Made by a program: the position numbers and the translations under genes | DNA from: Kaistella treverensis | GTDB taxonomy: Bacteria > Bacteroidota > Bacteroidia > Flavobacteriales > Weeksellaceae | Direction: 5' to 3' | Assembly: GCF_900114045.1 (NCBI RefSeq) | Contig: NZ_FORQ01000001.1 | Span: 372,001-436,000 of the forward strand | Length of the DNA: 64,000 nt | The notes under the pieces: generated by a model | Seen by the model: the letters and a program-made list of their open reading frames with translations, nothing else | The model's database searches: none | What the model was told of the DNA's origin: nothing | In this document: in pieces, positions 19,495 to 40,556 of the stretch | Layout: each line of letters opens with the position of its first letter | Numbering within the stretch: position 1 is the stretch's first letter

Positions 19495-19497
19495 AAA

Positions 19498-19597
19498 ATG
19501 GCAAGCTACCTAAATCACACCGCTACAACCGATTACCTTTGCTGCGTTCCCACCCTGGAGGAGTTTCAGGAGCTGGTTGTTTAGGACTTGCCGTTGC
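19498..19597 (-). ncRNA. ffs: Small bacterial signal recognition particle RNA (4.5S)
   Basis: Reading the minus strand from about 19597: GGCAAGTCC, then CTCCTCCAGGGTGGGAACGC, then AGCAAAGGTA, and finally AGCTTGCC before ATTTTTTATTT. GGCAAG (5' end) pairs with CTTGCC (3' end), giving the long closing stem. The GGGTGGGAACGCAGCAAAGG portion corresponds to the conserved domain-IV internal loop that binds Ffh. The T-rich tract after the closing stem is a terminator and overlaps the end of the convergent NUMOD4 gene. Ends are approximate. Confidence 0.92.
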
Positions 19598-19665
19598 AAA
19601 GATACGCCTTTAATTCAAAATTCAAAATTCTACGCCTTAAAAAGGCAAATTTTATTAAAATAAAT

Positions 19666-27655: not shown

Positions 27656-27676
27656 CAATATCCACCGAATTGTCAC

Positions 27677-27742
27677 TAGCCCGGATTGAAGCGGCATCCT
27701 TTTGCGAAGCGCAGCGCAGAAAAAGATACAGCGAAAAGCCGG
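27677..27742. repeat. REP-like hairpin element, copy B
   Basis: TAGCCCGGATTGAAGCGG, CATCCTTTTGCG, a short GCGAAGC/GCGC hairpin centre, AGAAAAAGATACAGCG and AAAGCCGG follow in order. The outer CCCGG and CCGG boxes and the inner T/A runs match the order in the elements at 15235-15331 and 43973-44046. Confidence 0.6.
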
Positions 27743-27827
27743 AAAAAACTTCTAAATAAAATACAAAAAAGTGCACGTTGTACGGCAAATAAAAAGGATC
27801 AATAATATTAATCCTATTTTATTTTAA

Positions 27828-38229: not shown

Positions 38230-38293
38230 AAAAAATGAAAAATTTACTGCTTTTAGCGGCAAATAAATATTTAGCAATGGTAAAATGTAACTG

Positions 38294-38325
38294 TTTGTAA
38301 ATCTAATATATAAGTCCTATCTTTG
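38294..38325 (+). promoter_or_regulatory. Strong Bacteroidota promoter for the Rnk-like gene
   Basis: TTTG at 38294-38297 and TATCTTTG at 38318-38325 are separated by 20 nt, a full match to the -33/-7 pattern. Transcription should start near 38331, leaving a leader of about 277 nt before the coding region at 38608. Confidence 0.7.
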
Positions 38326-38607
38326 CTTTTCAGTAGAAACAAAAATGACGTTAGTTTACCTTTTTTTGGAGAAATTTTCAGACGATGTAAAGTCGTCATT
38401 TTTGTGCTATCTGCTTGACGACAAATTTCTTAAAAATTCTAAAGAGTTTATATAATCCTCCCTGTCGCGGTTCAGGGCAGGGAACTTCCAAAATTAAATA
38501 CTCAATTCATCAATTTTGAATGCTTACGCAGAAAATCAAACCAATAATTTTGTTTCTGCCTGAATCAGCTTTGGTATTCAAGAATTAAATTTAGAAAAGA
38601 AATCAAC
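38326..38607 (+). promoter_or_regulatory. Long structured leader of the Rnk-like gene, candidate cis-acting RNA
   Basis: Several pairings are visible. GACGA (38381-38385) and TCGTC (38393-38397) form a stem followed by ATTTTTG. GTCGTCA (38392-38398) can pair instead with TGACGAC (38416-38422), so the two are exclusive. TCCCTG (38459-38464) pairs with CAGGGA (38478-38483). TTGAAT (38517-38522) with ATTCAA (38576-38581) encloses GCAGAAA (38528-38534) with TTTCTGC (38553-38559). A 36-codon ORF (38345-38455, MTLVYLFLEKFSDDVKSS start) overlaps the first two stems and may be a leader peptide. A copy of the repeat core, CTGCTTTTAGCGGCAAAT (about 38249), lies just upstream of the promoter. Confidence 0.5.
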
Positions 38608-38985
38608 ATGTCCGAACAAATCATTTTAACCACAGGTATTTACGACTTAATTAAAGAACATTTACGCAGAAAAGGCACAACCATCGAAGAAGAAGAAATT
38701 CTTTTAAACCAGCTGAGATATGCAAAACAGGTGCGCCGCCGCGAGTTGCCCGAAGACGTTGTAACGGTAAACCGCGCGATTACGGTGAAAGATATAGAAA
38801 CCGAAGAAGAGGAAAAATTCCTTTTTGTGCAGACGAGCAAAGAAAAAGTAAAAAAGGGAAAATATTCCATTTTATCGCCGATAGCGCTTGCAACAGTAGG
38901 AAATAAAGTTGGCGATGTAATTACGTGGCCATTTAAAGATGGCGATAAGAAAATCGAAATTCTTAATGTTGAACACTATAATTAA
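38608..38985 (+). CDS. GreA/GreB-family (Rnk-like) transcription factor
   Basis: 125 residues. The C-terminal half (VVTVNRAITVKD..KFLFVQ..GKYSILSPIALATVGNKVGDVITWPF) is the FKBP-like domain of GreA/GreB. The N-terminal part (about 45 residues) is far shorter than the coiled coil of GreA, as in Rnk and similar regulators. Such proteins bind the secondary channel region of RNA polymerase; without the long coiled coil and its acidic tip they do not promote RNA cleavage. Expression is probably controlled through the long leader. A bidirectional terminator ends the gene. Confidence 0.85.
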   Translation: MSEQIILTTGIYDLIKEHLRRKGTTIEEEEILLNQLRYAKQVRRRELPEDVVTVNRAITVKDIETEEEEKFLFVQTSKEKVKKGKYSILSPIALATVGNKVGDVITWPFKDGDKKIEILNVEHYN

Positions 38986-38992
38986 AAATAAA

Positions 38993-39019
38993 AAAAAACT
39001 CCTTATTTAGGAGTTTTTT
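38993..39019. terminator. Bidirectional terminator between Rnk-like and S41 genes
   Basis: Perfect 10-bp stem AAAAAACTCC / GGAGTTTTTT with loop TTATTTA. The minus-strand stop codon of the protease lies inside it. Confidence 0.88.
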
Positions 39020-40556
39020 TTGTTTCTGCTTTCTTGATGTCATTAAAAACCCATTGAAGCTGAATATCTTTTTTCTGAAAAATTTGCTCTAAAGTGGGCA
39101 GAATTTTTTCATCCGGAACCACGCCTTTTTTTGTAAAAGTAAAATCGATATCCGGCTGAATGAGCATCAATCCAATCGGCAGTTTTAGCTTGCTGTTCGG
39201 CAGTTTTTTCGTAGAATATCTTCCGGCAACGGTGCCGTCATTTGCGCCGCCGGTTTCTTCACCAACCAAAAAAGCGCGTTGATCATTTTTTAATTTCGAA
39301 GCGATGATCGACGAGGCGGAAAAACTGCTGCCGTTGATCAGAATATAAATTTTGCCGGTAAAACGGTCTTTTTTTGGTTTTCTTATGGAGAAAAATCCGT
39401 TATTCTTCAGGAAAAAACCGTCGTTTTCTTTTTTCACCGAAAGCGCCGAACCCACAAAATAAAACGGATAAACTAAAACCGCAAGCGGTTTCAGCAAAGT
39501 TGGGAATTCGCGGAAATAATCTGCCTGCAACATCGAAGCGCGCGATGTAACTTCAATATCATTGATAAACTGAAAATTCTCGGAAACCAAGTAGGAATAA
39601 AGGTTATTGATTTCTGCCAGCGAGCCGCCCAAATTATCGCGGATGTCTAAGATTAAATATTTTGCCGGTGATTTTTTTAAAACAGCAAAACTCTGGCGGT
39701 AAAATTTCCGCGAATAGGTGCCTGAAAAAGTTTTGATTTTCATGTACGCAACCGCAGAATCTTTCTGCGGAAACTGCAGATCTCGGTTGAAACTTTTGGT
39801 GATGATATTATAATCTTTGGTTTTTCCCGAATCGCTTTTGGTGAGTTTTTTCTCCTGCTTTTCCTTGCTTTTCAGCTCTTTTTCGGTTATTTTTTCGCGG
39901 CGCAGATAAAATGTATTTTTTTGATTTTCAAATAATGTTTCAACTTTTACGCTGTCTAAAATCCCGAATTCTTCGGTAAAAAATGTCGGCCAGCGCCGCG
40001 CCATGGAATATTTTTGAAAAGTGGTGTTGAAACCGTCGCTATTTACAAAAGGTTTATATTTTTCAATTAAATTTTTTACGGGAATATCTTTAATGCTGAT
40101 AATTTCGCTTCCGACTTTCATATTTGGAAGTTTATCCGGATTGTCTTTTACGAAAACACGGTTATCATCGACCACAAAATTATAGCGCGAAAGCAAACCT
40201 TTTTGCTTTTTCAGATCACGGATTTCTTTTTTGGTCAAGCGTTTTTCAGCGGAATATAAACGGAGATGACCCTCTCGAATATCAGCGATGACCGGCGCAA
40301 GCTTCTGGTAAAATTCGTTCGGTTTTAAAGGTTTATTGATGGTTGTTTTTAAACTGTCAAATTTAAAATCCAAGTCTTCTTTGCTGATGTACCAATACAG
40401 TTTCGGATGCAGTTTTTCCAGCTGATGCTGCGCAAAATCCACGTCTGCTTTTAGCTTTTCAGCGGAAACAGGCTTCTCTAATCCTTCATTAAATTTCTTC
40501 ACCGAAACACACGACGTCAGCAAAAAAAAACCGGCAAAAAGGAGGAAATTTTTCAA
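39003..40556 (-). CDS. S41-family (C-terminal processing) peptidase, lipoprotein
   Basis: 517 residues with a lipoprotein signal (MKNFLLFAGFFLLTSC, Cys16). The S41 core is recognisable: YLILDIRDNLGGSLAEINNLYSYL, YILINGSSFSASSIIASKLKND with the presumed nucleophile in GSSFSAS, and LVGEETGGANDG. A PDZ-like segment (LPNMKVGSEIISIKDIPVKNLIEKY) precedes it. Located at the cell envelope, it should cleave proteins near their C-terminus. It is convergent with the Rnk-like gene and stands alone on its strand. Confidence 0.9.
   Translation of the reverse strand: MKNFLLFAGFFLLTSCVSVKKFNEGLEKPVSAEKLKADVDFAQHQLEKLHPKLYWYISKEDLDFKFDSLKTTINKPLKPNEFYQKLAPVIADIREGHLRLYSAEKRLTKKEIRDLKKQKGLLSRYNFVVDDNRVFVKDNPDKLPNMKVGSEIISIKDIPVKNLIEKYKPFVNSDGFNTTFQKYSMARRWPTFFTEEFGILDSVKVETLFENQKNTFYLRREKITEKELKSKEKQEKKLTKSDSGKTKDYNIITKSFNRDLQFPQKDSAVAYMKIKTFSGTYSRKFYRQSFAVLKKSPAKYLILDIRDNLGGSLAEINNLYSYLVSENFQFINDIEVTSRASMLQADYFREFPTLLKPLAVLVYPFYFVGSALSVKKENDGFFLKNNGFFSIRKPKKDRFTGKIYILINGSSFSASSIIASKLKNDQRAFLVGEETGGANDGTVAGRYSTKKLPNSKLKLPIGLMLIQPDIDFTFTKKGVVPDEKILPTLEQIFQKKDIQLQWVFNDIKKAETKKTPK

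Follow-up and report, generated by a model that had tools for sequence, protein, structure and literature searches.

TnaC, SpeFL, ErmCL and SecM are regulatory nascent leader peptides (arrest peptides), and to our knowledge the known arrest peptides and attenuators mostly guard secretion, antibiotic-resistance or amino-acid genes. In the repY/repZ leaders of IncI-alpha/IncB-type plasmids, translation of a leader ORF is tied to an activating pseudoknot; the start site is sequestered until the leader ORF has been translated, and an antisense RNA is directed against the hairpin loop. Within Bacteroidota, according to the accessible part of one report, uORF clusters confined to this phylum end in proline (N-S-P or N-A-P) and precede secA or secDF (PMC10987492). 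The available portion of another study describes E. coli greA as autoregulated through its GraL leader, with an intrinsic terminator and short transcripts (PMC6829880), and structured, Rfam-negative 5' regions, some with clues to leader-peptide attenuation, are described for Flavobacterium psychrophilum in a source that was likewise seen in part (PMC9723704). No account of the leader element analysed here was found in the open-licence literature, subscription papers lying outside the scope of the search.

The element lies in a 64,000-nt stretch of the Kaistella treverensis genome (hereafter the window), upstream of a gene for a GreA/Rnk-like protein, and comprises the following features:

38294-38325, + strand: Bacteroidota-type promoter, with TTTG at -33 and TATCTTTG at -7 (from sequence)
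38345-38455, + strand: uORF of 36 codons, MTLVYLFLEKFSDDVKSSFLCYLLDDKFLKNSKEFI* (motif, pN/pS and length conservation)
38408-38452, + strand: conserved C-terminal codons of the uORF, YLLDDKFLKNSKEFI (Tyr, Phe, Leu and Lys invariant, third positions variable)
38460-38482, + strand: hairpin P1, CCCUGUC (38460-38466) with GGCAGGG (38476-38482) (covariation, pairing and fixed spacing)
38469-38475, + strand: P1 loop strand of the predicted pseudoknot, GGUUCAG (covariation of loop with partner)
38516-38581, + strand: predicted hairpin P2 (38516-38523 with 38574-38581) enclosing P3 (38528-38534 with 38553-38559) (predicted folds and alignment)
38560-38566, + strand: predicted pseudoknot partner CUGAAUC, directly 3' of P3 (own versus permuted partners)
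38608-38985, + strand: GreA/Rnk-like gene, 125 aa (Pfam GreA_GreB, E 9.4e-18)
38991-39021, either strand: bidirectional terminator behind the GreA/Rnk-like gene (terminator scan)

Like the leaders of arrest peptides, this locus combines a short uORF, whose conserved C-terminus lies within tunnel distance of its last codons, with a single downstream gene and, on geometry only, with an RNA structure (P1) placed where a paused ribosome would disturb it. It differs from them in a peptide without proline or a RAPP-like end, in its long-range pseudoknot, in having no conserved intrinsic terminator and in preceding the gene of an RNA-polymerase factor, and the motif Y-L-H-D-D-x-F-L-K-x-S-K-E-F-I is not among the arrest motifs known to us. 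As in the repY/repZ leaders, a hairpin loop appears to pair with a segment 5' of the regulated start, but here the peptide is conserved and the hairpin comes after the conserved codons. With GraL the element shares its position as a putative regulatory leader of a secondary-channel factor gene; it differs in carrying a uORF, none being mentioned for GraL in the accessible part of that source, and in a T-run after P1 that is little longer than elsewhere. The F. psychrophilum regions are also Rfam-negative leaders of Flavobacteriaceae, whereas the genes named in the available portion of that report are pheA, hisG, ftsY, acsA, alaS and rimP, none of them greA- or rnk-like (PMC9723704).

Promoter and overall layout

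The TTTG box occupies 38294-38297 and the TATCTTTG box 38318-38325, leaving a leader of about 277 nt before the ATG at 38608; we take TAnnTTTG to be the promoter box of Bacteroidota. The promoter match and the long leader had been pointed out in the initial annotation, and both are present in the sequence, as is every other sequence that it named (GACGA, TCGTC, the stems and the ORF), each at or beside the position given for it. The boxes recur beyond chance: TTTG and TATCTTTG-type boxes are both found in 39 of 55 distinct leaders, as opposed to 2% of shuffled windows. In the 43 leaders in which the -7 box and the uORF start could both be placed, the box is 14-25 nt 5' of that start in 34. Since the boxes and the spacing from the -7 box to the ORF are conserved, one transcript most likely holds the uORF, the linker and the GreA/Rnk-like gene. 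Directly after the stop codon of the upstream TonB receptor, the stretch 38235-38300 (ATGAAAAATTTACTGCTTTTAGCG...) reads like the start of a signal peptide and soon stops; 29 nt of it recur at 93% identity elsewhere in the genome, and it is possibly a gene remnant.

An attenuator-like switch had also been proposed, in which GACGA (38381) pairs with TCGTC (38393) or, exclusively, GTCGTCA (38392) pairs with TGACGAC (38416). These segments are part of the uORF coding sequence. Of the 11 close relatives aligned, only two, the window and L038, keep the two folds, so the switch was rejected. The only stretch that the terminator scan flagged within the leader, 38381-38397 followed by ATTTTTG, belongs to this same region and is kept in the same 2 of 11 relatives; no conserved intrinsic terminator was found in the leader. 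The view that the leader is not a known riboswitch agrees with the Rfam search, which gave no accepted match in the leader at the gathering score; at E values up to 5 it returned three matches, all on the opposite strand and far below gathering.

The uORF and its conserved C-terminus

The working set comprised 66 leaders (L001-L016 and L037-L086), some of them representing the same genome twice. A motif scan with a score cut-off of 40 found the C-terminal motif Y-L-[HL]-[DT]-D-x-F-L-K-x-S-K-[ED]-F-I encoded in 65 of the 66 (55 distinct), the lowest scores being those of Pelobium (41) and Pedobacter (42) and the sole leader without it being L066. Codons 0, 6, 7 and 11 encode Tyr, Phe, Leu and Lys in every one of the 55 distinct sequences, with variation in the third codon position; over 21 uORF codons, the entropies at codon positions 1, 2 and 3 are 15.7, 13.3 and 27.2. 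The pN/pS ratio is 0.32 in the uORF frame versus 1.17 and 1.39 in the other two, for which only 14 and 11 stop-free columns were usable. Judged by these substitution patterns, the 36-codon uORF, already noticed as an ORF in the initial annotation and present at 38345-38455, is a true coding sequence under amino-acid selection.

Conservation is strongest in the 15 codons up to Ile, whereas the N-terminus is variable and the length nearly constant: an ATG lies 26-60 codons 5' of the stop in 53 of the 55 leaders, and the uORF spans 33-40 codons in 52 of these 53 and 49 codons in the remaining one. From this combination of 15 conserved terminal residues, a free N-terminus and near-constant length, we infer a nascent peptide of the type that acts in the exit tunnel. 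A regulatory codon run is not apparent, as no run of more than three identical residues occurs in the last 35 residues of the 55 uORFs; runs of three Leu occur in 11 of them and are absent from the window's own. Amino-acid attenuation of the his/trp type was thus rejected, there being neither such a run nor a conserved intrinsic terminator. A codon bias was seen at the Glu/Asp position that precedes the conserved Ile by two codons (38444-38446 in the window), where Glu is written GAG in 36 of 39 cases and Asp is written GAC in 13 of 16; in the long open frames of the window, GAG makes up 126 of 911 Glu codons (14%). No partner for the G/C third base of this codon was found at a fixed distance.

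Hairpin P1

A stem of the form CCCUGUC/GACAGGG comes after the conserved uORF codons. The initial annotation had listed it as a TCCCTG/CAGGGA stem and suggested that stem covariation be checked in orthologues; P1 does covary, beyond shuffled controls, whereas the exclusive switch stems are not conserved. The statistics were computed on 48 of the 55 distinct leaders, omitting six near-duplicates and L013, in which the stop falls inside P1. Across these 48 leaders, 97.3% of P1 cells are paired, the covariation score is 0.196 versus 0.126 in shuffles (0 of 500 as high), and four of the seven pairs have changed on both sides, which only 4 of 500 shuffles reach. The count of additional pair types discriminates less well, as 49 of 500 shuffles reach it.

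P1 starts 6-8 nt 3' of the conserved Ile codon in all 55 leaders, while the stop codon follows that Ile after 0, 1 or 4 codons in 16, 38 and 1 leaders, respectively. Even where the ORF extends into P1, as in the held-out leaders L096-L098, P1 begins 7 nt after Ile. Because the spacing from P1 to Ile is fixed while the stop moves, P1 is registered to the last conserved codons rather than to termination, and this register with Lys-Glu-Phe-Ile points to ribosome pausing at the end of the uORF. Intrinsic termination at P1 was rejected, as the T-run is not unusual: the longest T-run 3' of P1 averages 2.8, against 2.5 elsewhere in the leader.

Long-range pairing of the P1 loop

The loop of P1 in the window can pair with a segment before the gene (GGUUCAG/CUGAAUC), a pairing absent from the initial annotation. 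Across leaders it is maintained by compensated pairs such as AACUUAGG/CCUGAGUU, UGAUUCAC/GUGAAUUA, AAUCGGG/CCCGAUU and UCGUUCGCA/UGCGGGCGA. When the whole downstream leader was searched, the mean pairing score was 17.05 (n=55); shuffling the loops lowered it to 12.87 (sd 0.27), and swapping downstream regions between species lowered it to 13.2 (sd 0.39). Best partners that score 14 or more and sit 40-57 nt 5' of the ATG occur in 47 of 55 leaders; in 43 the distance is 45-55 nt. In a fixed-window test, with the partner confined to a stretch 33-62 nt 5' of the ATG and each distinct loop represented once (n=39), own partners scored 16.5 versus 11.4 for permuted ones (sd 0.44, maximum of 1000 permutations 12.9).

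With the same fixed window, 48 of all 55 leaders score at least 14 and seven fall below. L057 and L014 have a good partner for the P1 loop outside the preset window, two Tenacibaculum leaders have no good partner within it, and in Pedobacter the element lies far upstream of the gene and a convincing pseudoknot is absent. A held-out set of 15 leaders outside both the covariance model and the pseudoknot set, several of them closely related to each other, gave 16.8 versus 12.0 (sd 1.07, maximum of 1000 permutations 16.3; n=14); 11 of these 14 score at least 14, the others being L127 (13), L095 (12.6) and L128 (8), and in held-out L099 the P1 caller returned no P1. In 11 aligned Kaistella sequences, the pseudoknot is 93.5% paired with one-sided changes only and no double change, so its support comes from the wider leader set. 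On this comparative evidence, with covariation far beyond the controls, the P1 loop is predicted to pair with a stretch some 45-55 nt ahead of the gene start.

The P2/P3 region

Two nested stems had been described in the initial annotation, TTGAAT/ATTCAA (P2) around GCAGAAA/TTTCTGC (P3); the region as a whole stands out beyond chance, whereas P3 taken alone is weak. Folds were analysed in 48 leaders with the best partner 38-60 nt before the ATG, in which the region from P1 to the ATG exceeds its shuffled versions in predicted stability (mean z -1.57). A P2 of at least five pairs encloses the partner in 47 of 48 leaders when the partner is held unpaired and in 43 of 48 without constraint, but such enclosure alone is weak evidence because it also occurs in 65% of shuffles. 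The partner lies 0-4 nt after the last upstream helix in 44 of 48 predicted folds, a count that has no shuffle control.

The 11 Kaistella sequences were aligned by sequence only; an alignment of Chryseobacterium-type leaders contributed to none of the counts. Over all helices, 88.7% of positions are paired and the covariation score is 0.196 versus 0.149 (0 of 500 shuffles as high); by helix, pairing reaches 98.7% in P1, 97.7% in inner P2, 77.3% in outer P2 and 75.3% in P3, and the consensus fold of these sequences contains P1 and P2 and lacks P3. The A-rich start region is unpaired in most predicted folds, so classical sequestration of the start site is not seen in those folds.

Distribution of the gene and its leader

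The gene product carries a GreA/GreB domain at its C-terminus (Pfam). Its best NCBIfam model is PRK05753 (nucleoside diphosphate kinase regulator), at 60.6 bits under a cut-off of 109; among solved structures, the protein comes nearest to Rnk 3BMB (E 1.3e-6), followed by 2PN0 and GreA 1GRJ (E 9.7e-5). Kaistella solincola is the closest named relative, at 95% protein identity. Strong orthologues were found in 30 of 36 genus genomes (E <= 8.9e-43), the other six having weak paralogues only, and in 31 of 100 genomes of the family sample (E <= 4.6e-33). All 26 orthologue loci of the family sample outside the genus were taken, as sets of 20 and 6, together with all of the 17 loci from named contigs except L017 (Gilvimarinus, 33% identity); the six extra family orthologues and nine leaders from the phylum scan served as held-out leaders.

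A covariance model of the last 15 uORF codons plus P1 gave one strong match per genome. It matched 29 of the 30 genus genomes with the gene, most of which had been used to build it, and none of the six without. In the phylum sample, run with stricter filters, matches occurred in 13 of 395 genomes (E <= 6.3e-7), nine of which lay outside the model; the same 13 genomes carry the gene at E <= 1e-20, and each strong match adjoins it. Each of the six family orthologues that had not entered the model has the element as well (E <= 1.7e-9). Weak matches in ten more phylum genomes (E 0.01-0.05) were attributed to chance, as no GreA-like gene is present in those loci. The named carriers are Kaistella, Chryseobacterium, Tenacibaculum, Gelidibacter and Flavobacterium and, more weakly, Pelobium and Pedobacter.

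In L066 (genome G034), the gene is kept and the uORF and P1 are lost, while P2, P3 and the partner seem, by eye, to be retained; in sequence terms it is a natural deletion mutant, the leader's 5' half having been replaced. Among ten neighbour proteins of five orthologues, two have no family, two are HTH_3 proteins, lying downstream of the gene in L011 and L013, and the rest share no common function. As the neighbours differ in the five loci, apart from HTH_3 in two, the gene and leader look like one patchily distributed unit. In the Kaistella loci L002 and L004, the upstream ORF has 794 codons, the same length as the TonB receptor in the window. L099, from a genome of another family, has two tandem GreA/Rnk-like genes behind one leader (1732-2570).

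Possible mode of action and alternative explanations

The initial annotation had suggested that the long leader regulates the gene; this is supported, at the level of comparative sequence, by promoter position, uORF, P1 and pseudoknot in leaders of the Flavobacteriaceae type, the elements being weaker in two or three leaders from another class. The order is promoter, uORF, P1 at a fixed distance from Ile, and a pseudoknot partner 3' of P3 inside P2. A ribosome at the Lys-Glu-Phe-Ile codons would cover or melt the 5' arm of P1, a purely geometric argument that draws on the generally known size of the ribosome footprint. Since such a ribosome would occupy this arm, the fold of P1 with the pseudoknot and a ribosome dwelling on the last uORF codons should be mutually exclusive. 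The conserved C-terminus may be a nascent-peptide signal that prolongs this dwell in certain circumstances; the state of the fold beside the initiation region may set expression of the gene, and the output of this RNA-polymerase factor would then track translation. To the proposal that this is a ribosome-operated cis-regulatory leader of the GreA/Rnk-like gene we give an even chance. As for direction, our guess, leaning only mildly to this side, is that the closed fold represses (low expression) and a stalled ribosome releases (high expression).

The wider proposal, which we hold tentatively and rate somewhat below even, is a Bacteroidota leader class in which a new arrest motif senses the state of the ribosome and sets a secondary-channel factor via a long-range pseudoknot, in place of a terminator or a hairpin at the start site. 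If true, transcription would be adjusted to translation through a factor of the RNA-polymerase secondary channel, and a conserved arrest peptide on such a gene would constitute a direct wire from ribosome to polymerase. A small ORF 5' of the orthologous gene is also expected in many Flavobacteriia. The element is compact, its covarying pairing is clear and its peptide motif is sharply defined, which makes it testable by point mutations.

The main rival to repression by the closed fold is the reverse direction, with an enhancing pseudoknot. A distinct alternative, which we think unlikely, is that the leader is a translation-coupled enhancer without peptide arrest, in which ribosome traffic on the uORF times an activating pseudoknot as in repY/repZ, with conservation of codons and peptide serving the timing of termination. 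The layout is the same, a leader ORF and a hairpin loop pairing 5' of the gene start, and in 39 of 48 predicted folds P2 ends just outside the initiation region, 21-31 nt 5' of the ATG (a count with no shuffle control). However, such an enhancer needs neither strong amino-acid conservation nor a register to Lys-Glu-Phe-Ile, and the stop position varies.

The occurrence of strong model matches only beside the gene in the scanned genomes would also suit a uORF product that acts in trans as a small protein, with RNA polymerase or the Rnk-like protein as a possible target, while P1 and the pseudoknot form a separate stability or translation element; we regard this as distinctly improbable, as constraint in the last 15-20 residues, the variable N-terminus and the fixed P1 spacing fit action in cis better. 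The leader might instead be bound by a protein, with the GreA/Rnk-like product regulating itself, or by a small molecule, as in a riboswitch, the uORF then being secondary. A precedent is E. coli GreA, which represses its own gene via GraL according to the accessible part of that study (PMC6829880). The prospects of this account appear slim, since no Rfam match was found in the leader and the sequences of P2, P3, the loop and the partner vary freely across species, unlike a binding pocket, while the codons and the P1 stem are conserved. Recoding would have the pseudoknot, 7 nt past the conserved codons, promote frameshifting, readthrough or bypassing, or in short form yield a frameshift product ending before the gene. 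It resembles known stimulators in spacing and pseudoknot but is barely credible: entry into the gene is rejected because no frame (readthrough, -1 or +1) is open to it in 44 of 55 leaders, the open frame is inconsistent in the other 11 (5, 3 and 3), and the codons at the site vary, by eye, in third position, so there is no fixed slippery sequence.

Other RNA features of the window

Beyond the leader, the Rfam search identified a Flavo-1 RNA at 27674-27749 on the + strand and a small SRP RNA at 19495-19600 on the - strand.
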